DNA of 64,000 bases, from the NCBI RefSeq assembly GCF_000300005.1, contig NC_018691.1, forward strand, positions 1,550,001-1,614,000, in the 5' to 3' direction. Of this stretch, positions 44,665 to 57,438 are shown in pieces. Each line of letters opens with the position of its first letter. Within the stretch, counting starts at the first letter, position 1. The notes below the pieces were generated by a model that searched no databases, was not told the origin of the DNA, and saw only the letters and a list, made by a program, of their open reading frames with translations. The translations under genes and the position numbers were made by a program. This DNA is from Alloalcanivorax dieselolei B5. Lineage in GTDB: Bacteria > Pseudomonadota > Gammaproteobacteria > Pseudomonadales > Alcanivoracaceae.

Positions 44665-45720
44665 ATGTATCCTTACGCCGAAGGCCTGTGGGCGGCTCGC
44701 AATCAATGGTATGTGGCCGGCTGGAGCGATGAAGTCAGCCGTGAGCCCATGGAGCGCTGGCTGCTCAACGAACCCGTGGTGTTTTACCGTAGGGAAGACG
44801 GCGCCATCGTGGCCCTGCATGGCCGCTGCCCGCACCGGCAGTTCCCGCTGGCCAAGGGTCGAGTGGTCGGCGACCGCCTGGAATGCGGTTACCACGGCTT
44901 TACCTTCGACCAAAGCGGCGCCTGTACCCGCATTCCCACCCAGGAAGTGATTCCGTCATCATGCCGGATCGATGCCTACCCAGTGGTGGAGCGCTGGAAC
45001 TGGTTCTGGATCTGGATGGGCGACCCGGACAAGGCCGATGAATCCCTGATTCCGGACCACGATATCGTCAAGCTCACCGATCCGGACTGGCTGCCGGTGA
45101 AAGCCGCCACCCATTTGCTCAAGGCCCGTCATCAACTGATGCACGAGAACCTGTGTGACCTGTCGCACCTGACCTTCCTGCATCCGGGCATCATCGGTGT
45201 CGACGCCGTGGCCGACACCGGCTTCGATGTCAGCGGCGAAGGTATGTGGTATCGGGATGCCCGGGCCATGTACAACCAGGCGCCCACTGGGTTCTTCTCC
45301 GACATCCTGGATTACCACGAGCCCATCGACCGGCTGATGTCCATGGAGTTCTACCTGCCGTGCTTGCATCTGGCCGAGGAAGTGTTCCTTGCCCACGACA
45401 AGAAGGACGGCGAACCGGGCCGCGAACTCGGTACCTACAAGGTACACCATGCGGTAACACCGGCCACGGACCACGAAACCCATTATTTCGTGGCGTATTC
45501 CCGTAACTTCGCCACCGATGACGACAACGTTACCGAGATCATCAATGGCGCCTTCGCCGCTGTCCTGCAGCAGGACGTGGACGCGGTGGAAACCCTTGAG
45601 GAGATGCTGCAAAAAAGCGGCGATTGCGCCTTCAAGGATTTCCTCGCCAAGGGCGACGTCACCTCCGTGAAGGTGCGCCGCAGCATGGAAGCTCTGATTC
45701 GCGCGGAAATTCCGCAGTAG
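44665..45720 (+). CDS. Rieske non-heme iron oxygenase, O-demethylase (VanA-like) alpha subunit
   Basis: A 351-residue oxygenase of the VanA/TsaM/dicamba monooxygenase type. The Rieske 2Fe-2S ligands are C55, H57 (CPHRQFPLA) and C74, H77 (CGYHGF). The mononuclear iron site is NLCDLSHLTFLH, with D165, H168 and H173. The family removes O-methyl or N-methyl groups as formaldehyde, or hydroxylates methyl groups. A formaldehyde dehydrogenase at the end of the operon strongly favours demethylation. Electrons come from the reductase gene 59 bases downstream. The sequence alone does not show whether vanillate is the substrate. Confidence 0.9.
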   Translation: MYPYAEGLWAARNQWYVAGWSDEVSREPMERWLLNEPVVFYRREDGAIVALHGRCPHRQFPLAKGRVVGDRLECGYHGFTFDQSGACTRIPTQEVIPSSCRIDAYPVVERWNWFWIWMGDPDKADESLIPDHDIVKLTDPDWLPVKAATHLLKARHQLMHENLCDLSHLTFLHPGIIGVDAVADTGFDVSGEGMWYRDARAMYNQAPTGFFSDILDYHEPIDRLMSMEFYLPCLHLAEEVFLAHDKKDGEPGRELGTYKVHHAVTPATDHETHYFVAYSRNFATDDDNVTEIINGAFAAVLQQDVDAVETLEEMLQKSGDCAFKDFLAKGDVTSVKVRRSMEALIRAEIPQ

Positions 45721-45728
45721 TAGCCGTA

Positions 45729-45766
45729 CCGGGATGGAGGAGGGTGCCTGACTCCGCCCCGGCTTT
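45729..45766 (+). terminator. Possible attenuator hairpin within the oxygenase operon
   Basis: CCGGG (45729-45733) pairs with CCCGG (45758-45762), extended by GGAG with CTCC, and is followed by CTTTTT just before the reductase ribosome site. It could reduce transcription of the reductase and downstream genes relative to the oxygenase. Confidence 0.45.
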
Positions 45767-45779
45767 TTCGAGGTGCCCC

Positions 45780-46751
45780 ATGTCCATCACTTGGATGACC
45801 CTGAAGGTCGTACGTAAAGAATTGGAAGCAGAAAACGTCGTGAGTCTTGAACTGGCGGGGCCGACCGGCAAGGAATTGCCGACGTTTACCGCCGGTGCCC
45901 ACGTCGATGTGGAGATCCGGCCTGGTCTGATCCGCCAATACTCTCTGTACGGCGATCCCCAGGAGTGCCGCCGTTACCGCATCGCCGTGCTGCGCACCGA
46001 GACCTCCCGCGGTGGCTCAGTGACCGTGCATCAGTCCCTGCGTCAAGGAGATACGGTGCGCGTCAGTGTGCCGCGCAATCATTTCCAGCTCAGCGAAGGC
46101 GACCATCCGTCCATTCTGCTCGCCGGAGGTATCGGCATCACGCCGCTGTACGGCATGGCTCGCACTCTGCACCGCCAGGGTGCCGAGTTCGAGTTGCATT
46201 ACTGCGCGCGCAGCGAAGCCCGCTGCGCGTTTCTCGGCGCGCTCCAGGATGCGGACTACCGCGACCGGGTGCGCTTCTACCTCACCGGGCAGTCGCCGGA
46301 CTACCGGCTCGATCTGGACGGGGTGATGAGCAACGCCGCTCCGGGCGCGCATTTCTATGTGTGCGGCCCGGCCCGCTTCATCGACCAAGTACTGGAGACC
46401 GGTCGTCGCCACGGGATCGATGAGGACCGGTTGCATCGGGAATTCTTCGCGCCACCAGAACCCGCCTCCGACGCCGACCCGGACGGAGCGTTCGAGGTCC
46501 GGCTGGAGCGCAGCGGCAAAACCCTTGAGGTATCGGCGGACCAAACCATCGCCCAAGCCCTGCAGGATAACGGCGTGGAGGTGGAACTGTCCTGCGAGCA
46601 GGGGGTGTGCGGAACCTGTTTGACCGCGCTTTTGGAAGGCGAGGCCGATCACCGCGACTTCTACCAAACCGAGGTGGAGCAGGCGGCCAACGAGCGGATC
46701 GCGTTGTGCTGTTCCCGGGCCCGTTCGCCGTTGCTGGTCCTCGACTTGTGA
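45780..46751 (+). CDS. Rieske oxygenase reductase (VanB-like, PDR family)
   Basis: A 323-residue reductase. It has an FMN-binding barrel (RQYSLYGDP, about residues 50-58), an NADH domain (ILLAGGIGITPLYGMARTL, HFYVCGPARFID) and a C-terminal plant-type 2Fe-2S domain (SCEQGVCGTC and a later Cys in LCCSRA). The module order is that of phthalate dioxygenase reductase and VanB, which use FMN and not FAD. It supplies electrons to the Rieske oxygenase encoded upstream. ATG 45780 with AGGTG upstream is chosen; the frame is open further upstream but that part lies in the oxygenase gene. Confidence 0.9.
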   Translation: MSITWMTLKVVRKELEAENVVSLELAGPTGKELPTFTAGAHVDVEIRPGLIRQYSLYGDPQECRRYRIAVLRTETSRGGSVTVHQSLRQGDTVRVSVPRNHFQLSEGDHPSILLAGGIGITPLYGMARTLHRQGAEFELHYCARSEARCAFLGALQDADYRDRVRFYLTGQSPDYRLDLDGVMSNAAPGAHFYVCGPARFIDQVLETGRRHGIDEDRLHREFFAPPEPASDADPDGAFEVRLERSGKTLEVSADQTIAQALQDNGVEVELSCEQGVCGTCLTALLEGEADHRDFYQTEVEQAANERIALCCSRARSPLLVLDL

Positions 46752-46799
46752 AGCGGGCTGGTCCTGGCCGACCGGCCGGTTAAAACATCGGAAAGAATA

Positions 46800-47753
46800 A
46801 TGACAAGACAACCGTTCCAAAAAATGCGTATAGGCAATATGGGAGGCGATTTTATTGCGCTTTCGGCGGCGTTGCTTGCCCTTGGCGCGGGGGGGCTGAG
46901 CGTGCCCGTCCAGGCTGCGGAAAACGGCAATATCTCCTGGCCGATCGGTGTCAACACAGTACTTAACGGCGTCGCCACTGCCCCCGGGGAAAACCGCCTG
47001 TACAACTACACCCTGTTTTACAGCGCCAACCGGCTCAACGGCGGCGCCGGGGATGACAGCGGCGTGGACGTGGATGCGAAGGTGTTCGTGAATGCCCTGC
47101 GCCTTGACCATGGCTGGGGCATGATCGGGCGCAAGACTCATCTGGTGTCCGGTTTCGTGCTGCCCTACGTGGATGCCTCCATCACCCTGTTTGGCGACAA
47201 AAGCACCGACAACGGCCTCGGCAACCTCAGCCTCAAGCCGCTGATCATTGGCACCCATAACGACGCCAACACCTTCTTTATGCAGATCGCGCCGCTGGAT
47301 CTGGACCTGCCCAGCGGTTCCTACGATCGGGATGGCGCCGCCAACGCGGCAGTGAACTACACCTCCTGGCAACCCAACGCCGGCTATAGCTGGTTCCCGG
47401 CGCCGGGCTGGGAAATCGGCGGCACCCTGTCGGCGGCGGTGAACACCGAGAACGACGACACCAACTACCAGACCGGCTGGCTGATGCATTACGAACAGGT
47501 GGTGGCCTGGTCGGTGACCGACAAACTGCAGCTTGGTGTGCAGGGCTTCTATTTCAAACAGATGGCGGACGACGAAGTGGATGGCCACACCTACCTGGAC
47601 GGCTACCGCACCCGTGGCGCCGCCCTGGGCCCCCAGATCCGCTATGACTTCCGGCCCGGCGTGGCGGTGGTGGCCAAATACCAGAAGGAATTCGACTCGG
47701 AAAACAAGGCCGAGGGCGAACGCTTCTGGGTGCAATTCACTTTCCCTTTCTGA
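46800..47753 (+). CDS. Outer-membrane channel of the MetA/SphA phenol-degradation type
   Basis: A 317-residue exported protein with a signal peptide (about 1-39, ending VPVQA before AENG). The mature part alternates hydrophobic and polar residues like a beta barrel and carries family blocks: NISWPIGVNTVLNG, LDLDLPSGSYDRDG, YTSWQPNAGYSWFPAPGWEI and a terminal FWVQFTFPF ending in Phe. The family is encoded in aromatic-compound clusters and is thought to let hydrophobic substrates cross the outer membrane. It supports a hydrophobic, aromatic-like substrate for this operon. Confidence 0.85.
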   Translation: MTRQPFQKMRIGNMGGDFIALSAALLALGAGGLSVPVQAAENGNISWPIGVNTVLNGVATAPGENRLYNYTLFYSANRLNGGAGDDSGVDVDAKVFVNALRLDHGWGMIGRKTHLVSGFVLPYVDASITLFGDKSTDNGLGNLSLKPLIIGTHNDANTFFMQIAPLDLDLPSGSYDRDGAANAAVNYTSWQPNAGYSWFPAPGWEIGGTLSAAVNTENDDTNYQTGWLMHYEQVVAWSVTDKLQLGVQGFYFKQMADDEVDGHTYLDGYRTRGAALGPQIRYDFRPGVAVVAKYQKEFDSENKAEGERFWVQFTFPF

Positions 47754-47777
47754 ATCCGGAACAAGAGGACGAGCATC

Positions 47778-48977
47778 ATGACGAACGACAATCGTGGCGT
47801 GGTCTACGTGGGCGACGGCAAGGTCGAGGTCCGCACCATCGGCTACCCGAAAATGGAGGACCCTCGCGGCCGGCGCATTGAGCACGGCGTTATTCTCAAG
47901 GTGGTGTCCACCAATATCTGCGGCTCGGACCAGCACATGGTGCGTGGCCGCACCACGGCGCCGGAAGGCCTGGTGCTGGGGCACGAGATCACCGGCGAGG
48001 TGATTGAGAAAGGCCGCGACGTGGAGAACCTGGCGTTGGGCGACCTGGTGTCCGTGCCCTTCAACGTGGCCTGCGGGCGCTGCCGTTCCTGCCAGGAGCA
48101 GCACACCGGCGTGTGCCTGAACGTGAACCCGGACCGCGCCGGCGGCGCCTACGGCTACGTGGACATGGGCGGCTGGGTGGGTGGCCAGTCCGAGTACGCG
48201 CTGGTGCCCTACGCCGACTTCAATCTGCTCAGGTTCCCGGACCGCGACCGGGCCATGGAGAAGATCCGTGATCTGACCTGCCTCTCCGACATTCTGCCCA
48301 CCGGTTTCCACGGCGCGGTGAGCGCCGGGGTGGCGCCGGGGCGTACCGTCTACATCGCCGGCGCCGGCCCGGTGGGGCTGGCCGCCGCCGCCTCGGCCCG
48401 GTTGCTGGGCGCGGCGGTGGTGATCGTCGGCGACGTCAACCCGCGCCGTCTGCAACACGCCAAGGCCCAGGGCTTCGAGATCGCCGACCTGTCCCTGGAT
48501 ACGCCCCTGGTGGATCAGATCGCCGCCCTGCTGGGTGAGCCGGAAGTGGACTGCGCGGTGGACGCGGTGGGCTTCGAGGCGCGTGGTCACGGCCGCGAGG
48601 GGGCGCGCAGCGAAGCGCCGGCGACGGTGCTCAATGCCCTCATGGAGGTGACCCGGGTGGCCGGCCACATCGGCATTCCCGGCCTCTACGTCACCGAGGA
48701 CCCGGGTGCCGTGGACGGCGCCGCCAAGCTGGGCAACCTGAGCGTGCGCTTCGGGCTCGGCTGGGCCAAGTCCCACGCCTTCCATACCGGCCAGACCCCG
48801 GTGATGAAATACAACCGGCAATTGATGCAGGCCATCCTCTGGGACCGCATCAACATCGCCGAGGTGGTCAACGTCCAGGTCATTGATCTGGACCAGGCTC
48901 CGGAGGGTTACGGCGAGTTTGATGCCGGCGTGCCGAAAAAATTTGTGCTCGACCCCCACGGCCTGGTGCCGGCCTGA
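47778..48977 (+). CDS. fdhA: Glutathione-independent formaldehyde dehydrogenase
   Basis: A 399-residue zinc alcohol-dehydrogenase family enzyme of FdhA length. Catalytic zinc ligands lie in NICGSDQHMVRGR and LGHEITG; structural zinc Cys in CGRCRSCQEQHTGVC; the NAD site is YIAGAGPVGLAAAA. It oxidises formaldehyde to formate with tightly bound NAD and no thiol cofactor. As the last gene of the operon, 24 bases after the channel gene, it removes the formaldehyde expected from Rieske demethylation. This pairing is known in methoxy-aromatic and N-methyl catabolic clusters. Confidence 0.92.
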   Translation: MTNDNRGVVYVGDGKVEVRTIGYPKMEDPRGRRIEHGVILKVVSTNICGSDQHMVRGRTTAPEGLVLGHEITGEVIEKGRDVENLALGDLVSVPFNVACGRCRSCQEQHTGVCLNVNPDRAGGAYGYVDMGGWVGGQSEYALVPYADFNLLRFPDRDRAMEKIRDLTCLSDILPTGFHGAVSAGVAPGRTVYIAGAGPVGLAAAASARLLGAAVVIVGDVNPRRLQHAKAQGFEIADLSLDTPLVDQIAALLGEPEVDCAVDAVGFEARGHGREGARSEAPATVLNALMEVTRVAGHIGIPGLYVTEDPGAVDGAAKLGNLSVRFGLGWAKSHAFHTGQTPVMKYNRQLMQAILWDRINIAEVVNVQVIDLDQAPEGYGEFDAGVPKKFVLDPHGLVPA

Positions 48978-48987
48978 CCGCACCCAC

Positions 48988-49010
48988 CCAAGGGGGCTCC
49001 GCCCCCTTGG
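48988..49010. terminator. Hairpin between convergent fdhA and cytochrome gene
   Basis: CCAAGGGGGC (48988-48997) and GCCCCCTTGG (49001-49010) form a perfect 10-bp stem around TCC. No T-run follows on either strand, so termination efficiency is uncertain. Confidence 0.6.
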
Positions 49011-49025
49011 CTTCCTCCAGTGCCG

Positions 49026-51296
49026 TCACTGCAATCGATTCAGCAAAAGCCGTGCGCGTCGATCCTTTGGATAGTGTGATAGCAGTTGGTGAGCATAGGT
49101 TAACGCTTCCTCCCTCCGGCCAGATCGTGCATTGAAGGACGCCCCGGCCCAGAGCAAATCGTGATCGAATGGATGCTTTCGGATGGCGCCCTCAATCAGG
49201 GAAAGCGCTTGTTCCGGCTCGCTGTTGAAAAGCGCCACCGCCAGCACATAGCTATACCGGGCGCTCTCGGGCTGCAAACGATAGGCTTCCTTGAAAGCGG
49301 CCAAGGCTTCCTCATTGCGTTGTTGGCGCACCAGCGAGAAGCCCAGTGCTTGATGAAGCTCGGGGGAAGCAGGGGATTGCGATAGCCCATCAAGCAAAAC
49401 CGCTTCGCTTTTGGATTCTTGATTGCTGGAAGACCAATAGCTGGCAAGGTTGAGATAGGTTTGCGTGCTAAATGGATCAAGCGCGGTGGCGCGCAACCAG
49501 TATTGCGTCGGGTCGTCACGCTGTAATGCCAACTCTAGCATCGCCTTTCGATTCAAGTGTTCGGCGCGATCACTGTTTAGCTCCAGTTCTTTCTCATGGT
49601 CTTCAAGCGCGGAAGACAGCGTTGGCGGTGCATCGGGGGCTCCCGCGAGGAGCCGCGCCGCGCTGGACCGCAAGCCGCGATAGCGGTCTTCGAGCACAGA
49701 TCCCAATAAGTCCGCTCTTTCTTCGATAGGCAGCCCCCCCGCGCTCTCCAGTGCGCCCTGCCGAAGCAACGGATCATCACTCCGCAGAAGCTGCGCAATT
49801 ATTCGGCTATTCTCCATGACCTGCGGGTCCAGTCTGGCTGCGGCACTCGCACGTACCATGGAACTATAGGCCGTTGAGGTGGATAAACGCCGAAGGTCAA
49901 GCTGTGCGGAGGGGGCCCCGGCATCGGCGGCCGAAAAGACCGAACCGTAGTGTTCGGTGAGCCAACGGCCTTCCGGGTAGTGGTCGCGGAGCCGGCTCGC
50001 GGCCCACTCCGCCGACTTGTCCTCGTGGCATCCATTACAGGCATTAGGAACGCCCAGCGTTATGCTGAGGTCGGGCCGGGGTATGGCGATACGGTGATCC
50101 CGCCGCGGATCCACCTTCATATAGGTGGTCTCCGGCATATGGCAGTTAACGCATTGCGCGCCGTCCGAGCCAGGGGGATGGAAATGATGAGTGGGTTGGT
50201 CGAACTCCGTTTCAGCGTGGCAGCGGGCACAGAGTGCGTTGCCTTCCTCGTGGGTCCGCTGGGTATGTGGATCGTGGCAATCGACGCAGGTCACGCCCTC
50301 CATCGCCATCCTGCTTTGCTCGAAGGAGCCGGTGATGAACACCTCGGCCCGTTGTTGACCGTCGGCATGGTACAAGGGAGGGTGTATCAGCTCCGGACGG
50401 TAGTGATCGAAGAGGGCGCCGCCTTGCTGCATACCCTCTTGTACCAGGTGACGAAGGCTGTGGCATTGGGCGCAAACGTCCTGCTCGCCTTTATCATTCC
50501 CCACCTTACGGGCGGTATTTTCATCCTCCGTTCGTTGCCAATCCGATTCATGATGGGCGTCCAGGATTCGATTCAACCCTGAATCAGGAAGTGCGGTGTT
50601 TCCCCGGGCCCACTGTATGTGCCTGCTTGCCGGGCCGTGACAGGATTCGCAGCCCACTCCCAGCTCGGAAAACTGACTTTCAAATCGGTCCTGTTGTGGC
50701 AGATAGTTCTTTTGAAAATTCGTGACGTGGCAATCCGCGCACATGGCGTTCCAGTTTTGATCCGGCCGTAGCCAGTGAGCCGGCCCCTCAGATCCATGGG
50801 CCTCCGAGGTATCCAACGAGAACCAGCGTTGCCCGCCCTGGGCGGTCGGTCGGCTGTCCCAGGCCACGGAAAACGCTTGCAGTCGGCCACCCCCCACATC
50901 CAGAAGATACTGTTGAAGAGGGCTGACCCCGAAGGTGTAAAGGACCTTGAATTCCCGCTCCGCGCCGTTTGGCCCACGGGTCAGGATCTTGAAGTCGTCT
51001 TCCCGGCGGATGAATTCGGCGACAATACCGGACGCTTTGAATTGCACGCCATTGAAGTCTCCCAGCACTGTTTCGGCACTGGCATGTTGCATGGCATTGG
51101 CGTGCTGGCTCTCCCGCCAGTCCCTGTAAATGGCCTGGTGGCAGCCGGCGCAGGCCTCGGAGCCGATGAAGGTCGGGCTTTCGGTGGTTGCCACTGAACG
51201 GGTCTCTGAATCCGGACTTGCCCGGAAAAGGAAAAAACAGAGAACGGGGATAAGGAATAAGAACGCGGTAACCGTCAATGGGAAGCGTCTATTCAT
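49026..51296 (-). CDS. Octaheme c-type cytochrome with C-terminal tetratricopeptide repeats
   Basis: A 756-residue exported protein: a membrane-anchor or signal segment (about 8-25) and eight CxxCH heme motifs in the first ~430 residues (CAGCH, CADCH, CESCH, CAQCH, CVDCH, CARCH, CVNCH, CNGCH). Residues ~590-755 form TPR helices (ALGFSLVRQQRNEEALAAFK, YVLAVALFNSEPEQALSLIE). Proteins of this build occur in marine bacteria; the function is unknown, electron transfer with a docking platform being likely. It follows the arylsulfatase by 72 bases on the same strand. Base composition here is visibly lower in GC than neighbouring operons, suggesting acquisition. Confidence 0.85.
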   Translation of the reverse strand: MNRRFPLTVTAFLFLIPVLCFFLFRASPDSETRSVATTESPTFIGSEACAGCHQAIYRDWRESQHANAMQHASAETVLGDFNGVQFKASGIVAEFIRREDDFKILTRGPNGAEREFKVLYTFGVSPLQQYLLDVGGGRLQAFSVAWDSRPTAQGGQRWFSLDTSEAHGSEGPAHWLRPDQNWNAMCADCHVTNFQKNYLPQQDRFESQFSELGVGCESCHGPASRHIQWARGNTALPDSGLNRILDAHHESDWQRTEDENTARKVGNDKGEQDVCAQCHSLRHLVQEGMQQGGALFDHYRPELIHPPLYHADGQQRAEVFITGSFEQSRMAMEGVTCVDCHDPHTQRTHEEGNALCARCHAETEFDQPTHHFHPPGSDGAQCVNCHMPETTYMKVDPRRDHRIAIPRPDLSITLGVPNACNGCHEDKSAEWAASRLRDHYPEGRWLTEHYGSVFSAADAGAPSAQLDLRRLSTSTAYSSMVRASAAARLDPQVMENSRIIAQLLRSDDPLLRQGALESAGGLPIEERADLLGSVLEDRYRGLRSSAARLLAGAPDAPPTLSSALEDHEKELELNSDRAEHLNRKAMLELALQRDDPTQYWLRATALDPFSTQTYLNLASYWSSSNQESKSEAVLLDGLSQSPASPELHQALGFSLVRQQRNEEALAAFKEAYRLQPESARYSYVLAVALFNSEPEQALSLIEGAIRKHPFDHDLLWAGASFNARSGRREEALTYAHQLLSHYPKDRRARLLLNRLQ

Positions 51297-51368
51297 GGAA
51301 CTCCGGGGCTCTTTCTTAACGCAGCGCGGACGAGCCGCAAGCCGTCCGCGTGGATCATGGCCAGGATT

Positions 51369-53060
51369 CTAGCGAATAAATTCAGGCCAGGGGTAGGGGT
51401 TCAGTTGCACGCCAACTCTTTCCATGTAGTTACTCCACTCCTTCTTGAGCTGCTTGGTGACGTCCGGGTTTTCTTTGTACAAATCGTTTATTTCGCCTCT
51501 GTCGGAGCTCAGGTCATAAAGCTGCCACTGTCCGGTTCCATTCGGAGGATCGATCCAGAGCATTTTCCAATCGCCTTTGCGAATCCCTCTTCGGCTGAAT
51601 AACTCCCAGCCCACGGCGTGGTCCTGTTCCGGCATGACGTCGATCTCACCGGAAATCATGGGAAGCCACGAACGCCCCATCGGAGCGATGACACTCCTTC
51701 CCTTGTACTCGTTGTCGGGCACCGGGACTTTGGCGATATCCAGTACCGTGGGAAGGATGTCCATCACATTTATTACACTCCTGTTCGGGGTGCCGCCGCC
51801 GTCCATGCCGGGCATGTTGATGATTAATGGCGAGGATATGCCACCTTCGGAGGTCATGGTTTTGGTTCCGCGAAACGGGGTGGAACTGACATGCGCCCAA
51901 TGGGGGCCGTACATGACATAGGATGTTCCGGTACCCATGTTCTCCGTGCTGTTGTCGTAGTGGGCGAATGTTGCTTCGAAAAGACCTTTTCCCGTAGTGC
52001 CATCCGCGCCGTTATCCGAGAAGAAGAGAATCAGGGTGTTTTCCAGATCCCCGGAGGATTTCAGATAATCAAGAACACGGCCAATATTATGATCCATGTT
52101 GTCAACCATCGCGGCGTATATCTCCATGCGCTTCGCTTCGCGCGCTCGCTCTTTATCAGGAAGTTCCCGCCAGATTTCCGCCAAGTCCTCATCTTGGAAG
52201 GTTGTGTCGTCTGAATCAATGATGCCGAGCGCTTTCATTTTCTTTAAGCGCGCGTTTCTGATGTCCTCATAACCAGAATCGTAACGGCCTTGATATTTTT
52301 TGATGTAAGCGTCTGGTGCTTGAAGTGGCCAGTGCGGCGCGGTGTAGGAAAGCATGGCGAAGAACGGAGCTTCGGATTCGGACTCATGGCGCTCTTTGAG
52401 ATAAGTGAGCATTTTGCTCGTATAGAAATCAGAAGAATAGAAACTCTCGGGTAGATCCGTGGGCTCATCATTCTCGGTGTATTGAGCTTTCGGCATCTTT
52501 TCCCGGCCGGGGGGAATAAAGGCGCCGTCCTGAGTGAAATGGTTGGCGGCTCCGTCCAGTAGCGCGAAGGAGCGCTCGAAGCCTCGCGCTCCGGGACGAG
52601 TGGCTGCCGATCTGCCGAGATGCCATTTTCCAGTCATGTACGTATGGTACCCATGATCGAGCAGTATCTGGGGTAAAGATAATGCTTTATCGTTCAACTC
52701 GCCTTCATAACCGGGCTTTCCTTGCGCCCCCGGAGTCAGAGGCAGATTCTCGGCCATGGTGCCAAGACCGACCAGATGGTGATCGGCGCCAGAGAAGATT
52801 TGTGCCCGCGTTGGCGAGCAGGCCGGTGCCACATAAAAATCGGTAAAAACGCTTCCTTCATTCGCAAGGTCATCCAGGTTAGGCGTATCAATTTCCCCAC
52901 CGAAAGCGCCGACGTCGGAATAGCCCAGGTCATCGGCCACGATGACCAGGATATTCGGGCGCTCCCCGGGTTCAGAATTGGCCGAGAAAGCGGTTGATGA
53001 AAGGCAAGAAAAAGCGAATAAAAACAGAATTCTGGTCCACTCTCGACGATGGCGCGGCAT
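51369..53060 (-). CDS. Exported arylsulfatase (formylglycine type)
   Basis: A 563-residue sulfatase with signal peptide (about 1-27, STAFSA). Metal ligands are VADDLGYSD (D43, D44); the active-site motif is C81-S-P-T-R followed by A, so Cys is to be converted to formylglycine. Further motifs are YMTGKWHLGR and FFSDNGADG. It hydrolyses sulfate esters in the periplasm or outside the cell. Length and sequence style are of the broad arylsulfatase A/AtsA-like group, so aryl or alkyl sulfates are both possible. No formylglycine-generating enzyme or anaerobic maturase gene is in the window. It lies between the porin and octaheme cytochrome genes, 28 bases after the porin. Confidence 0.9.
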   Translation of the reverse strand: MPRHRREWTRILFLFAFSCLSSTAFSANSEPGERPNILVIVADDLGYSDVGAFGGEIDTPNLDDLANEGSVFTDFYVAPACSPTRAQIFSGADHHLVGLGTMAENLPLTPGAQGKPGYEGELNDKALSLPQILLDHGYHTYMTGKWHLGRSAATRPGARGFERSFALLDGAANHFTQDGAFIPPGREKMPKAQYTENDEPTDLPESFYSSDFYTSKMLTYLKERHESESEAPFFAMLSYTAPHWPLQAPDAYIKKYQGRYDSGYEDIRNARLKKMKALGIIDSDDTTFQDEDLAEIWRELPDKERAREAKRMEIYAAMVDNMDHNIGRVLDYLKSSGDLENTLILFFSDNGADGTTGKGLFEATFAHYDNSTENMGTGTSYVMYGPHWAHVSSTPFRGTKTMTSEGGISSPLIINMPGMDGGGTPNRSVINVMDILPTVLDIAKVPVPDNEYKGRSVIAPMGRSWLPMISGEIDVMPEQDHAVGWELFSRRGIRKGDWKMLWIDPPNGTGQWQLYDLSSDRGEINDLYKENPDVTKQLKKEWSNYMERVGVQLNPYPWPEFIR

Positions 53061-53088
53061 TGTGAGCTCCTTTTTTCAGGCGTTGAGC

Positions 53089-54210
53089 TTAGAGAAGAAA
53101 GCTGTGTCTTATACCGATCTGGAAGGCGCGTGGGTCCGCGCCGGTCGGCAGGTTGGAAATAAAGCTCGGCGGTCCCTGCAGGCCACCCACCTGGGCGTGT
53201 GTTTGAAAGTCGTATTTCGCGTTTTCTTCGTTGTAGATCTTCGAATAGCTGATATACAGATTGGTGGATCGGGTCAGGAAGTATGAATAGCCCACCATGC
53301 TGAACTGAGCACCGGAATCGTCGATTCCCGAGACTCCGGATGCCTTGGCGTAGGTGCCGGCGAAAACATGCTTGCCATTGCGATACCAGACCGGGATGCC
53401 GAAGGTGGTTCGCGTCATGCCATTGGCGTAGTTGGGATCGTCGGTGGTCTGCCGGTCCACCACGATGGCCGCGTTCAGCCCCTGCTTGGGCGAATAGCTC
53501 AGCACGAACCGGTTACCACGAATCCGAAAGTCATCCACGGCGGAGATTGAGCTGCTGTCCTCCGTGCGCAGGTGAGAGTACAGAGTAAACCAGTTCCCAT
53601 GGGTATAGGTAAGCGTGCCGCCGTAGAGTCGGCCGGCGTTGCCGGAGGTGGTGAGCTCTTCGTTTGGGCGCGCGAAAAAGTAAGAGGTGTTCAGTCCTTT
53701 CCAAGTCGGGGTGCTGTATTCAACAACGTTTCGAACACGCCCGCCTGCTGACGAAGAGAAAGTCTGTCCATTGCCGTACACGAGCGGCAACATCAGCGTG
53801 CTCATGCCCATATAAACCGCCGCCCCATCCCATTTAAGAATGCCCGTCGGGTTGTGTACCTGAAAGTAGCCGGCTCTAAGAGCGCCGTAGCGGCGACTTT
53901 TCAGGCCAATGTGGCATTGGTCCTCGCAAAAGCCGTTGTTGATCGAAGACGGTTCAGTACTCCCGGAGCTGTCGAACATCGTCTGCGCAACGGCATACAC
54001 GCTGAGGTCATCGTTGATTTTATGGTCGGAACGCAGGGCGACCCAGGAGTAGGAGTCACTGATCTTGAACTGGTCCTTAATATCCGGAGTGGCACCAACG
54101 TGCTCCAAGGTAAGATTGATAGCACCGTATATTGATAAGCCCTCCGCTTTTAGTGGAGGGCATGCCAGTGAAGCACCGAGCACTGTCGCAATAGCGAACT
54201 TTCTAATCAT
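53089..54210 (-). CDS. Gram-negative general porin family protein
   Basis: A 373-residue exported protein with a signal peptide (about 1-22, PPLKA before EGLSIYG). The mature start EGLSIYGAINLTLEHVG and end QIGIRHSFLL, with beta-barrel alternation and SRRYGALRAGYFQVHNPTG, fit the Gram-negative porin (OmpC/Omp32-like) family. One Cys pair (CEDQC) is present. It probably admits the substrate of the sulfatase to the periplasm. It is the first gene of the porin-sulfatase-cytochrome block. The upstream 230 bases are AT-rich, with a short GCTATCGA shared with the LysR box. Confidence 0.85.
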   Translation of the reverse strand: MIRKFAIATVLGASLACPPLKAEGLSIYGAINLTLEHVGATPDIKDQFKISDSYSWVALRSDHKINDDLSVYAVAQTMFDSSGSTEPSSINNGFCEDQCHIGLKSRRYGALRAGYFQVHNPTGILKWDGAAVYMGMSTLMLPLVYGNGQTFSSSAGGRVRNVVEYSTPTWKGLNTSYFFARPNEELTTSGNAGRLYGGTLTYTHGNWFTLYSHLRTEDSSSISAVDDFRIRGNRFVLSYSPKQGLNAAIVVDRQTTDDPNYANGMTRTTFGIPVWYRNGKHVFAGTYAKASGVSGIDDSGAQFSMVGYSYFLTRSTNLYISYSKIYNEENAKYDFQTHAQVGGLQGPPSFISNLPTGADPRAFQIGIRHSFLL

Positions 54211-54442
54211 GGAAACCCCTTGTTACTTTTTTTGCTTATACGGAGAGTTTTTATTTTCTTGACACGCGATCCTTATTAGGAAGCGTCTGAAGCCGCATGC
54301 TAGGTTGGGGGGGCTATCGACAAAAATGATTTTTTTGAATTGTTATCAGCGATGGGGGCGATGATTGGCTGGATATCCGGCTCCACGCTCATCGGCGGGG
54401 AATGCGGAGTTGTGCATGACGGGAGAGGCGATGGTGGCGTAC

Positions 54443-55345
54443 TTAGGACGCGCCGTCACGCGGTTTGGCGCCCTTGAGAACCCGGCGGATCTGTTTCGCG
54501 AACGCCTGACTTGTGGTCGGGGCGGCGGCGCCGCGCATCCACAGCAGCCCCGGGGTGCGGATCGGTGTGGGGTTCTCCAGGGGCACCACGCTGACGCCTT
54601 CAGAATCGGCGATGGCGATCTCGCCGACGATACCGGCCAATTCTGATTTTCGGACCAGCTGGATCATGGCGCCGATGGAGTCCAGTTCCACCACCACCTG
54701 AGGTTGAGCGTTGGCGGAACGGAAGTGTTCGTCAATAAGCTGTCGCGTGGAGTATTGGCGTGGGAATAGGGTCATAGGCAGGTTATTCAGCTCGACCATT
54801 CGCACGCGCTTGCGGGTCGCAAAAGGGTGCCAGTTCGCGACCACCAGAACCATTTCCTCGTTATACAAAGGTTCGAACCATAGGTCGTGATCGTCCGGCG
54901 GCCGGTAGGCGATGCCGAGATCCAGGTCGCCGGATTTGAGCCGTTCGACGATGCGGTGTTGGGGCAACTCCTCCACTTTGATGCGCAGGGCCGGGTAGCG
55001 GTCCAGGAAGGCGGAGATGCAGGCCGGCACCAGCCGGGTGTTGAAGCTCTGAATCACCGCCACGCGCACTTCGCCCTGCACCGCATCGGTGGGCTGGTGG
55101 AGCGTGCTGACGGCGCCGTCGATCTGCTGCAGGGCTGGCATGATGCGGCTCAAAAAGGTGTCGCCGGCCTCGGTGATTACCACCCGTTTACCAATTCGCT
55201 CGAACAAGGGAGTGTCTAGTTCGGTTTCCAGCTGCTTGATTTGATGGGACAAGGTTGACTGCGTGACGTGGCACTTCTCCGCAGCACGAGTGAAGTTGAG
55301 GGTTTCCGCCAGAGTGGCGAAGTAGCGCAAATGTCGCAGTTCCAT
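54443..55345 (-). CDS. LysR-family transcriptional regulator
   Basis: A 300-residue regulator with an N-terminal winged helix (LRYFATLAETLNFTRAAEKC, VTQSTLSHQIKQLE) and a periplasmic-binding-protein-like effector domain (VRVAVIQSFNTRLVPACISA, LDLGIAYRPP, LAGIVGEIAIADSEG). CynR-like by sequence style. It is divergent from the citrate-synthase-fold/CoA-transferase operon; copy B of the shared 48-bp box lies in between, and copy A precedes the hydrolase operon 11 kb away. It is therefore the best candidate for a regulator of both operons, with a pathway intermediate as inducer. Confidence 0.88.
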   Translation of the reverse strand: MELRHLRYFATLAETLNFTRAAEKCHVTQSTLSHQIKQLETELDTPLFERIGKRVVITEAGDTFLSRIMPALQQIDGAVSTLHQPTDAVQGEVRVAVIQSFNTRLVPACISAFLDRYPALRIKVEELPQHRIVERLKSGDLDLGIAYRPPDDHDLWFEPLYNEEMVLVVANWHPFATRKRVRMVELNNLPMTLFPRQYSTRQLIDEHFRSANAQPQVVVELDSIGAMIQLVRKSELAGIVGEIAIADSEGVSVVPLENPTPIRTPGLLWMRGAAAPTTSQAFAKQIRRVLKGAKPRDGAS

Positions 55346-55364
55346 AGGATGTCTCTATTTAGTG

Positions 55365-55412
55365 ATGCTATCGATCATTTTCATGGATATTTATCACTTT
55401 TAACCACTATAG
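55365..55412 (+). promoter_or_regulatory. Shared 48-bp regulatory box, copy B
   Basis: From GATGCTATCGATCATT through TTCATGGATA and ATCACTTTTAACCACTATA, it lies between the LysR gene and the divergent operon. It matches copy A (43046-43093) at 37 of 48 ungapped positions. It contains ATCGAT and several T-N11-A spacings expected of LysR sites. Confidence 0.72.
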
Positions 55413-55483
55413 CCCGGTTCTAGGCTTTATTGAAAGCGGCGCCGCCGCGAGGCGGTGATTCATTGATCGACTGGATGAGAATA

Positions 55484-56296
55484 ATGAAGATTGGTAAGGA
55501 AACGGTTCCAAGAACCGCCATTTGTACTTCGAACCAGGACACCATCGTGGTGCGCGGCCTGGACCTTTGTCAGGACGCCATCGGCAAACTGTCCTTCACC
55601 GATTATTTTTATCTGCTACTCACCGGTCACCAGGCGACGCCGGCTGCCCGGGCGGTGCTGGATGCCACCCTGGTGGCCATCGCCGAGCACGGCCTGGTGC
55701 CCAGTGTGCAGGCGGCGCGTATGACCTATGCAGCGGCCCCGGAGGCAGTTCAAGGCGCGGTGGCGGCTGGTTTGCTTGGCTGCGGATCGGTGATCTTGGG
55801 GGCGGCCCAGCAGGCCGGTGAACTGTTCGACGCTATCGAACGGCGCACTCAGGAGCAGAGCGAGGAACTGGACCGCGCGGCTCACGTGGTGGTAGCGGAG
55901 TACCGTACTGCCAAACGCGCCATCCCCGGTTATGGACACCCGCTGCACAAGGCTCGCGACCCGCGCGTGGAAGCGTTGTTCAAGACCTCGAGGGAAGCCG
56001 GTGCTGGGCAGCGTTATGTGGACATCGCCGAAGCGGTGGAGCGGGTGATTCCGGCTGTGATGGGCAAAGACCTGCGCCTGAACGTGTCGGCGGCGATTCC
56101 GGCGGTGCTGCTGGGCGCGGATTTTCCTCTTAAGGCCCTGCGCGGCGTGCCGATCCTGGCGCGTAGCGCCGGCTTGATCGCCCATTTGTTTGAAGAGATG
56201 AACCATTCCATTGGATTCGCCCTGTCTTATCAGGCCGCCCGGAATGTGGAGTATCAGGGGGAAGTCCCCGCCGGCTTTCGGGAGCAACGGTCATGA
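55484..56296 (+). CDS. Citrate-synthase-fold protein (citryl-CoA lyase-like)
   Basis: A 270-residue protein matching the short citrate synthase/citryl-CoA lyase group. The conserved His of the family is present at about residue 152 (IPGYGHPLHKARDPR). By eye, the other two catalytic positions differ: the HGG-type His is replaced in GSVILGAAQQAG, and the Asp of NVDFY is Ser (NVSAAIPAVLL, about residue 202). Ordinary citrate synthesis is therefore unlikely; C-C cleavage or condensation of a CoA ester is the inference. ATG 55484 has GGATGAGA upstream; ATG 55475 is an alternative. Its stop overlaps the CoA-transferase start (ATGA). Confidence 0.8.
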   Translation: MKIGKETVPRTAICTSNQDTIVVRGLDLCQDAIGKLSFTDYFYLLLTGHQATPAARAVLDATLVAIAEHGLVPSVQAARMTYAAAPEAVQGAVAAGLLGCGSVILGAAQQAGELFDAIERRTQEQSEELDRAAHVVVAEYRTAKRAIPGYGHPLHKARDPRVEALFKTSREAGAGQRYVDIAEAVERVIPAVMGKDLRLNVSAAIPAVLLGADFPLKALRGVPILARSAGLIAHLFEEMNHSIGFALSYQAARNVEYQGEVPAGFREQRS

Positions 56297-57438
56297 TCAA
56301 GGTTCTCGAAGGCGTTCGGGTGATTGAGCAGGGTACGTTTATCACAGGTCCGAATGCGGGCATGTTGCTGGCCGACCTCGGCGCGGAGGTGATCAAGGTG
56401 GAGAAGCCCGGCAGCGGTGACCCGTTCCGGGCTTTCAAAGGCGGCCTTTATAGCCCCCATTTCCAGACCTACAACCGAAACAAACGCAGCGTCACACTCG
56501 ATACCAGGGAGCCGGAGGATCTGGCGTTGTTCGACCGCCTGATCGTCGACGCGGACGTTTATATCCAAAATTTCCGCCCTGGCACCGCTGAGCGCTTGGG
56601 TGCCGGCGAGGAGCGACTACGCGAAATCAACCCGAAGCTGATCTATTGTTCCATCAGTGGCTTTGGCCAGGACGGGCCCGCCGCCGGTCGCCCGGCCTAT
56701 GACACCGTAGCCCAGGCCGCCAGCGGTTTCCTGGGATTGCTGATCAATCCGGAGAACCCTCGGGTGGTCGGCCCGGCCATGGCCGATGCATTGACCGGTT
56801 TCTATGCGGCCTACGGCATTCTCGGCGCGCTCCATGAGCGCCATCGCACCGGCCGCGGTCGGGCGGTGGATGTGTCCATGCTGGAGGCCATGTGCCATTT
56901 CAATCTGGACGCCTTCACCCATTACTTCGCCGAGGGTGAGGTAATGACACCGTACAGCCGGCCAAGCGTGTCCCAGTCCTATGTGCTGGAGTGCGGCGAT
57001 GGCAAATGGATTGCGCTGCACATGTCGTCACCGGAGAAATTCTGGCAGGGCCTGGCCAACGCCATCGATCAGCCGGATCTGTTACGCGATGACCGTTTCT
57101 GCAGCCGGGAGAAGCGAATCGATAATCAGCAACTGCTCATCGACTTGCTTGGGGCGCGTTTCAAACAGCGGGATAGGGAGGCTTGGTGTCGACGCCTGGA
57201 AGAGGAAGATGTGCCCTATGCGCCCATGTACGACAGCAGTGAGGCGTTGAGGGACCCTCAGGCGCGTCACCTGAAACTGGAAGTGAGCGCCCCCCACCCC
57301 GCTGGCGGTGAATGGCGCACGGTGCGCTCACCAGTGAGTTTCGATCATCAGCCGCCGCTGACAGTAAGCGCTCCGCCGGAGTTGGGGGATTACAATGAAG
57401 CGTTGCGCTCCTTGGTCCAGACTCGCCTGCTGGAATAA
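56293..57438 (+). CDS. Class III (CaiB/BaiF) CoA-transferase
   Basis: A 381-residue CoA-transferase: VLEGVRVIEQGTFITGPNAG at the start, DLGAEVIKVEKPGSGDPFR, NRNKRSVTLD, and the catalytic Asp at about residue 193 in RAVDVSMLEAM. It moves CoA between carboxylic acids without a ping-pong acyl-enzyme release. Coupled by an ATGA overlap to the citrate-synthase-fold gene, it probably makes the CoA ester that the lyase-like protein acts on. Donor and acceptor acids are unknown; a C4-C6 hydroxy-dicarboxylate from ring cleavage would fit. Confidence 0.88.
   Translation: MIKVLEGVRVIEQGTFITGPNAGMLLADLGAEVIKVEKPGSGDPFRAFKGGLYSPHFQTYNRNKRSVTLDTREPEDLALFDRLIVDADVYIQNFRPGTAERLGAGEERLREINPKLIYCSISGFGQDGPAAGRPAYDTVAQAASGFLGLLINPENPRVVGPAMADALTGFYAAYGILGALHERHRTGRGRAVDVSMLEAMCHFNLDAFTHYFAEGEVMTPYSRPSVSQSYVLECGDGKWIALHMSSPEKFWQGLANAIDQPDLLRDDRFCSREKRIDNQQLLIDLLGARFKQRDREAWCRRLEEEDVPYAPMYDSSEALRDPQARHLKLEVSAPHPAGGEWRTVRSPVSFDHQPPLTVSAPPELGDYNEALRSLVQTRLLE

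Follow-up and report, generated by a model that had tools for sequence, protein, structure and literature searches.

In a 64,000-nucleotide stretch of the genome of Alloalcanivorax dieselolei B5 (the window, which covers positions 1,550,001–1,614,000 of a 4.93-Mb single-contig genome), a leftward block of three genes at 49026–54210 encodes a porin, a sulfatase and an octaheme c-type cytochrome with a tail of helical repeats. A survey of gene neighbourhoods shows that the pairing of sulfatase and cytochrome recurs across several phyla and that several subfamilies of sulfatase take part in it; in the genomes sampled by sequence searches, the cytochrome is almost confined to genomes with a detected formylglycine (FGly) sulfatase. 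The explanation we prefer, to which we attach a probability of about one half, is that the cytochrome matures exported sulfatases by converting the catalytic cysteine to formylglycine, with the electrons passing to its hemes. A bolder version, for which the odds seem to us a little short of even, is that bacteria of several phyla possess a third, heme-based maturation system, composed of an exported octaheme cytochrome with a peptide-binding tail, that works in the periplasm without FGE or a radical SAM enzyme. The cytochrome may itself be the maturase, beyond acting as an electron sink.

The sulfatase and the cytochrome

The original prediction of a leftward porin, sulfatase and eight-heme TPR cytochrome is borne out by the open reading frames (ORFs), the Pfam matches, the eight CXXCH motifs and the CSPTR signature (Table 1). 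The genes follow each other in the order porin, sulfatase, cytochrome, with intergenic gaps of 28 bp (sulfatase/porin) and 72 bp (cytochrome/sulfatase), so the block is operon-like.

The sulfatase matches the Pfam family Sulfatase (PF00884, E 1.1e-57) and combines this fold with the C-x-P-x-R signature of FGly-dependent Cys-type sulfatases, in the form CSPTR, from which formylglycine is predicted at Cys81. Its best-scoring solved relative is the arylsulfatase AtsA of Pseudomonas aeruginosa (1HDH, E 4.9e-164), with which it shares the catalytic and metal-ligand positions; the AtsA-type catalytic residues and calcium ligands (D43, D44, C81, R85, G91, H243, D349, N350 and K400), taken from PMC6388578 and transferred through the 1HDH alignment, are invariant or nearly so in 27 sequences. 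The two proteins differ at the N-terminus, residue 3 of the 1HDH chain, which has no N-terminal signal segment, being aligned with residue 33 of the sulfatase. The catalytic residue is a cysteine in all 68 sulfatases of cytochrome loci with a readable column, and a crude hydropathy score indicates a hydrophobic N-terminus in all 25 linked sulfatases with a judgeable start. The distinction between Ser-type and Cys-type enzymes proved uninformative as a discriminator, as the sulfatases of genomes with neither the cytochrome nor a known maturase (orphan genomes) are likewise Cys-type.

The cytochrome has Pfam matches to Cytochrome_C554, to paired CXXCH motifs and to TPR, and its eight CXXCH motifs are all invariant across an alignment of 60 rows, in which the invariant cysteines of the family are confined to these motifs. 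Only six invariant histidines lie outside CXXCH for eight hemes in the 60 aligned sequences (the structural model holds no hemes), and at least two hemes therefore have no conserved distal histidine, which suggests open or non-His heme sites. The model of the whole protein has a mean predicted local distance difference test score (pLDDT) of 91.4 and a predicted template modelling score (pTM) of 0.90. Fold searches with it were swamped by TPR rows, and the heme domain was folded (mean pLDDT 89.5) and searched separately. The domain has the fold shared by multiheme cytochromes of the OcwA/MccA/NrfA type: its closest match is OcwA, the nonaheme cytochrome of Thermincola potens (6i5b; Z 21.6, 3.3 Å, 329 residues aligned; profile match E 2e-24), followed by an undecaheme S-layer cytochrome (Z 14.4) and the octaheme sulfite reductase MccA (4rkm/4rkn; Z 9.7, 279 residues aligned), while the values for NrfA (Z 7.2) and c554 (Z 5.5) fall in a range that possibly reflects just a common arrangement. 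Hydroxylamine oxidoreductase was absent among the fold matches listed, which excludes nothing.

According to PMC6703420, OcwA is a cell-surface terminal reductase with nine hemes, two of them open, a C-terminal helix bundle and a beta domain shared with MccA, the active site of which is heme 2. By analogy with these two proteins, heme 2 of the cytochrome (motif CADCH) is likely to be an open, catalytic heme. The cytochrome is distinguished from OcwA itself by its eight CXXCH motifs and by a HEAT/TPR tail in place of the three-helix bundle. It resembles MccA in having eight hemes and a similar fold, but MccA reduces sulfite, whereas the cytochrome family has the HEAT/TPR tail and no invariant cysteine outside CXXCH. 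Shorter relatives of 433 amino acids are encoded at L276:3396-4697 and L045:3166-4467; the former has eight CXXCH motifs and a profile match restricted to the heme part, and it comes from G179, a genome with sulfatases in which the full-length cytochrome was not found.

Table 1. Features of the block and of the adjacent regulator gene (positions in the window).
Feature	Position	Strand	Basis
Octaheme c-type cytochrome, HEAT/TPR tail, 756 aa	49026..51296	-	ORF, Pfam, alignment, model
Helical-repeat tail (HEAT then TPR), residues 446-756	49029..49961	-	Pfam, model, fold search
Octaheme domain of OcwA/MccA-like fold (residues 40-444); heme motifs 1 and 2 are separated by strands	49965..51179	-	models, fold search
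Heme motif 8, CNGCH (C420-H424)	50025..50039	-	sequence, alignment
Heme motif 7, CVNCH (C382-H386)	50139..50153	-	sequence, alignment
Heme motif 6, CARCH (C356-H360)	50217..50231	-	sequence, alignment
Heme motif 5, CVDCH (C337-H341)	50274..50288	-	sequence, alignment
Heme motif 4, CAQCH (C275-H279)	50460..50474	-	sequence, alignment
Heme motif 3, CESCH (C216-H220)	50637..50651	-	sequence, alignment
Heme motif 2, CADCH (C186-H190)	50727..50741	-	sequence, alignment
Heme motif 1, CAGCH (C49-H53)	51138..51152	-	sequence, alignment
Signal/anchor at the cytochrome N-terminus, residues 1-30 (modelled helix, 11-23)	51207..51296	-	sequence, model
Exported FGly sulfatase of the Cys type, relative of AtsA of P. 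aeruginosa, 563 aa	51369..53060	-	ORF, Pfam, 1HDH match
Sulfatase signature CSPTR (Cys81-Arg85); Cys81 is the expected formylglycine site	52806..52820	-	sequence, alignment
Outer-membrane porin (Porin_4), 373 aa, first gene of the block	53089..54210	-	ORF, Pfam
LysR-type regulator, 232 bp upstream of the porin	54443..55345	-	ORF, Pfam

Linkage of the two genes

Cytochrome loci were surveyed in relatives and in a scan of named genomes, for which all figures refer to the best 80 loci. An FGly sulfatase lies within 1.5 kb of the cytochrome in 15 of the 31 loci of relatives and within the fetched flank in 17; given how densely sulfatase matches occur in the same genomes, 0.35 linked loci would be expected. 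In 14 of the 15 linked pairs, both genes point the same way and are separated by no more than 250 bp. Among the named loci, the corresponding figures are 24 of 80 (25 with looser ORF calling) and 32 of 80, and the linked loci belong to Gammaproteobacteria, Alphaproteobacteria (Bradyrhizobium, Rhodoplanes, Ensifer), Planctomycetota and Gemmatimonadetes, with several metagenome-assembled genomes. Adjacency in a single genome, which the original prediction had named as an outcome that would count against it, is contradicted by both sets of loci. Of the 16 cytochrome genomes with one to four sulfatase matches, 13 have a sulfatase no farther than about 2.3 kb from the cytochrome, and the two sulfatases and two cytochromes of G082 form two pairs, about 2.2 kb and about 0.2 kb apart.

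The sulfatase is the most frequent recurrent neighbour of the cytochrome, with the 32 of 80 named loci mentioned above. Single-linkage clustering at 40% identity sorts the 41 adjacent sulfatases into six clusters, and the shared factor is therefore the sulfatase and not one substrate; a partnership specific for aryl sulfates is disfavoured by the same six clusters.

Some further genes were observed near the cytochrome. Single unlinked loci have a glycoside hydrolase 3, sulfotransferase or type I phosphodiesterase neighbour; at L277:1356-3212, the gene for a type I phosphodiesterase-like protein precedes an otherwise unlinked cytochrome gene by about 100 bp, and proteins of this type belong to the same superfamily as sulfatases. 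A HAD-like hydrolase (L332:6668-7753, the copy on which the Pfam assignment was made) has homologues near the cytochrome in eight other named loci, and in several loci it stands beside a sulfatase of the CTAGR type. Genes for MoxR, DUF58 and vWA proteins at L362:10241-16427, with homologous genes in seven other named loci and in L037, L044, L046 and L050, may be part of the cytochrome-sulfatase system.

Co-occurrence in genomes

Two samples of genomes were used, 94 relatives and a class sample of 321, with four genomes shared (411 together). In the relatives, the cytochrome was called at E < 1e-70 and the FGly sulfatase by profile A1 at E <= 1e-25; in the class sample, full-length or long partial matches counted as cytochromes and the sulfatase was called at E <= 1e-30. 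The class-sample listings omit genomes free of matches (37 in the cytochrome scan and 245 in the sulfatase scan). The cytochrome was detected in 29 of the relatives, the sulfatase in 35 and both in 28; the numbers for the class sample are 24, 56 and 22, respectively. Overall, an FGly sulfatase was detected in 49 of the 52 cytochrome genomes, as against 41 of the 359 genomes without the cytochrome. Stratification by family, in which 14 families were counted manually from the rows listed (the counts for the Fisher tests and for the expected linkage were obtained likewise), gave 22 joint occurrences for 9.3 expected and, when the largest family was left out, 12 for 6.7 expected (p 4e-4).

The three cytochrome genomes without a detected sulfatase are G041, in which the cytochrome is devoid of its first 268 residues, G296, in which its gene is frameshifted, and G269, which is 72% complete and has the gene at a contig end. 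Remnants of a locus comprising RND, sulfatase, sulfatase and cytochrome genes are present in L376 and L059 (G038 and G041, of one genus), consistent with single deletions.

Scarcity of known maturases

A true FGE was recognized by the Cys pair of solved FGEs (GGSxxCx4C), and FGE calls rest on this pair in the fetched loci. Among 43 FGE-family loci read, the pair was found only in L061 of G088, with none of the others scoring above 94.6 bits, where the query itself scores 704; further FGE-family loci, including 30 from the class sample, were also read for the pair. In one phmmer comparison of the class sample, proteins with the Cys pair scored at least 129.9 bits and those without it at most 117.6 bits. 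SPASM-type matches below the anSME cut-off (e.g. in G053, G082 and G092) were excluded from the anSME count.

On this basis, a Cu-type FGE is present in one of the 49 genomes with both cytochrome and sulfatase (G305), versus 13 of the 41 sulfatase genomes without the cytochrome, and an anSME over the cut-off is present in three of the 49 (G052, G075, G331), versus two of the 41. Known maturases were thus detected in 4/49 versus 15/41 genomes (Fisher p 0.0015; FGE alone, p 0.00017), and 45 of the 49 genomes show neither. The genome of Alloalcanivorax dieselolei B5 has a single FGly-sulfatase match, the one adjoining the cytochrome; an anSME match was looked for in this genome and not found, and its FGE-family matches are an EgtB-like protein and a NirV-like protein encoded beside a NirK-like gene (NirV-like and EgtB-like being labels given from reading the sequences and not from a family scan), both devoid of the Cys pair. 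By family tests, the cytochrome is itself neither an FGE nor an anSME, with no match to PF03781 and none to TIGR03942 at E <= 0.01.

Three observations on the FGE family were made in passing. The genuine FGE of G088 (L145:242-2912) has a signal-like N-terminus, is possibly periplasmic and is encoded by a gene overlapping that of an AtsA-like sulfatase; the cytochrome was not found in G088. In L209, L215-L218, L229, L230, L232, L234, L250, L251, L253 and L254, the Cys pair of FGE-like proteins is displaced by one position (e.g. GGSWWDCSFYQC), and many of these proteins show an in-frame CXXCH heme motif and have a second FGE-like gene nearby. An unusual amplification is seen in contig 1 of G043 (~1192009-1217400), where seven listed FGE-family matches in 25 kb form two groups of near-identical score.

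A proposed maturation route

The block would encode an exported formylglycine sulfatase and a partner dedicated to it, the octaheme cytochrome, anchored in the membrane and located in the periplasm. Maturation would take place after export: the HEAT/TPR tail would hold the secreted, still unfolded sulfatase, the catalytic cysteine of which would reach an open heme of the OcwA/MccA-type core and be oxidized by two electrons to a thioaldehyde, with hydrolysis yielding formylglycine, and the eight hemes would relay the electrons to the respiratory chain. The porin probably admits the sulfate ester to the periplasm. Of the two roles suggested in the original prediction, a supply of oxidizing power for sulfatase maturation has gained the better support, from the 45 of 49 genomes that show no Cu-type FGE or above-threshold anSME and from the sulfatase as recurring partner. 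The constant element of the loci is an FGly sulfatase of any subfamily, with substrates that probably differ, and a factor that targets the sulfatase protein accounts for this better than one that targets the product. Maturation is preferred because the linked sulfatases with a judgeable start look exported, because c-type cytochromes mature outside the cytoplasm and because a heme core from a superfamily that has catalytic members, joined to a repeat tail, could bind an unfolded protein and take two electrons from a cysteine.

The proposed role, conversion of cysteine to formylglycine, is that of FGE/SUMF1 (PF03781), an enzyme that may also sit away from the sulfatases it serves, but FGE uses copper where the cytochrome has heme, and a PF03781 match is missing from the cytochrome. 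With anSME/AtsB (TIGR03942) it would share the two-electron oxidation of the catalytic residue, differing in having no TIGR03942 match. It would resemble a third system, suspected in Escherichia coli, in that formylglycine is formed without FGE or a known anSME; Benjdia 2007 is reportedly the work cited for this suspicion. The literature describes an anSME able to serve several sulfatases (PMC6388578), names two known maturation systems (in a review, PMC3920027) and mentions the suspected third one of E. coli (PMC8379841). No link between a multiheme cytochrome and sulfatase maturation was found in a search of the open-access literature, with subscription papers and preprints outside the search. 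The cytochrome family is a concrete candidate for the activation of Cys-type sulfatases in bacteria without FGE or anSME. If it has this role, it would represent a new post-translational chemistry performed by a multiheme cytochrome, make the sulfatases of marine and other bacteria easier to produce in active form and open a new way to proteins with an aldehyde tag.

Several observations weigh against maturation by the cytochrome. Just two of the 19 cytochrome loci fetched from the class sample (from 18 of 23 cytochrome genomes, the 24th being that of the window, G000) are sulfatase-linked, and the neighbours of unlinked cytochromes are unrelated genes, such as those for DNA polymerase I, LpxC, citrate synthase and phosphoglucomutase; such loci are what might be seen with a trans-acting factor, or with an unrelated gene. 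In G305, G331, G052 and G075, the cytochrome occurs together with a known maturase. Conversely, 26 of the 41 sulfatase genomes without the cytochrome likewise show no Cu-type FGE and no anSME over the cut-off, and a full-length cytochrome was not found when these orphan genomes were rechecked with nearly all candidates scored. Their sulfatases are Cys-type in 33 of 33 cases with a readable column and, where the start can be judged, mostly have a hydrophobic N-terminus; therefore, either another maturation route exists or maturases were missed. The co-occurrence is possibly inflated because profile A1 was built from cytochrome-linked sulfatases, which biases detection towards such sulfatases. 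For the class sample, scoring with A1 and A2 took in no more than three first-look candidates from each genome. The cytochrome-only genomes are weakened as proof of correlated decay: G041 and G269 are not independent cases, because the former can be explained by one deletion spanning the linked locus and the latter genome is incomplete, and G296 alone remains. Finally, the proteins of known structure with the closest folds serve to reduce small molecules or to transfer electrons outward, and we know of none that acts on protein cysteines.

Among the alternatives, the one that survives best, unlikely though we consider it, is that the cytochrome is an accessory (an electron sink, chaperone or assembly factor) to another maturase, possibly with MoxR-vWA chaperones. 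The orphan genomes need some other maturase, the fold of the tail is that of protein-binding repeats, and 8 of the best 80 named loci have MoxR, DUF58 and vWA genes (Pfam assignments made on the L362 genes) no more than 8 kb from the cytochrome, with homologues in four loci of relatives. However, no other family recurs as the sulfatase does (32/80), the pair is joined only by a porin in Alloalcanivorax dieselolei B5, and the fold of the heme core belongs to a superfamily with catalytic members.

Less probable again is that the sulfatase is activated by another system and that the cytochrome accepts electrons from the periplasmic oxidation of the desulfated product, be it a phenol, an alcohol or a sugar. 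This was the other role suggested in the original prediction, for phenols, and it retains weak support: the heme domain has the fold of respiratory multiheme cytochromes, the block lies between genes for a VanA-like oxygenase and a formaldehyde dehydrogenase on one side and a CoA-transferase gene on the other, and the 26 orphan genomes carry such sulfatases, of the Cys type where read, so some further maturation system seems to exist anyway. Against it, the adjacent sulfatases come from different phyla and make up six clusters when grouped at 40% identity, which makes one shared aromatic product unlikely; the annotated neighbour families include no shared oxidase of desulfated products, the sulfatase itself being the most frequent recurrent neighbour (32/80); and in the genomes sampled, the cytochrome occurs without a detected FGly sulfatase in only 3 of 52.

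It is improbable that the cytochrome is a reductase of small molecules (nitrite, sulfite, hydroxylamine or a sulfur species) that shares niche and regulation with sulfatases without direct contact. Its fold is like that of OcwA and MccA and, more weakly, of NrfA, but such a role would leave unexplained both the tight linkage to several sulfatase subfamilies and why these genomes so rarely show FGE or anSME. A cysteine-bound copper site like that of MccA is not apparent, because the invariant cysteines all lie in CXXCH. According to PMC6703420, OcwA reduces nitrite and reacts with hydroxylamine, but not with sulfite.

Composition and surroundings of the block

The lower base composition reported for the block was confirmed gene by gene: the GC contents of the cytochrome, sulfatase and porin genes are 0.587, 0.533 and 0.552, versus 0.607-0.683 in six flanking genes, and the values for third codon positions (GC3) are 0.649, 0.610 and 0.676, versus 0.714-0.887. 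The description of the block as wedged into a catabolic island calls for a qualification: the block is not an insertion private to the genome, because a single 14.4-kb alignment to G012, of the same genus (84.6% DNA identity), spans the block and both flanks; G012 has the same porin, sulfatase and cytochrome genes, and a recent private insertion was rejected as the cause of the GC dip. Tandem repeats and tRNAs were looked for and none was found.

The product of the porin gene matches Porin_4 (E 1.2e-16). As a member of a conserved unit, the porin was rejected: among the first loci examined it was present only in G000 and G012, and it did not form a recurrent cluster in the neighbourhoods of relatives and of the class sample. 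The LysR-type regulator, encoded on the same strand, is a possible controller of the block. The flanks (44665-57438 of the window) encode a VanA-like Rieske oxygenase, a glutathione-independent formaldehyde dehydrogenase, a citryl-CoA-lyase-like protein and a class III CoA-transferase, which suggests O-demethylation and the catabolism of ring products.

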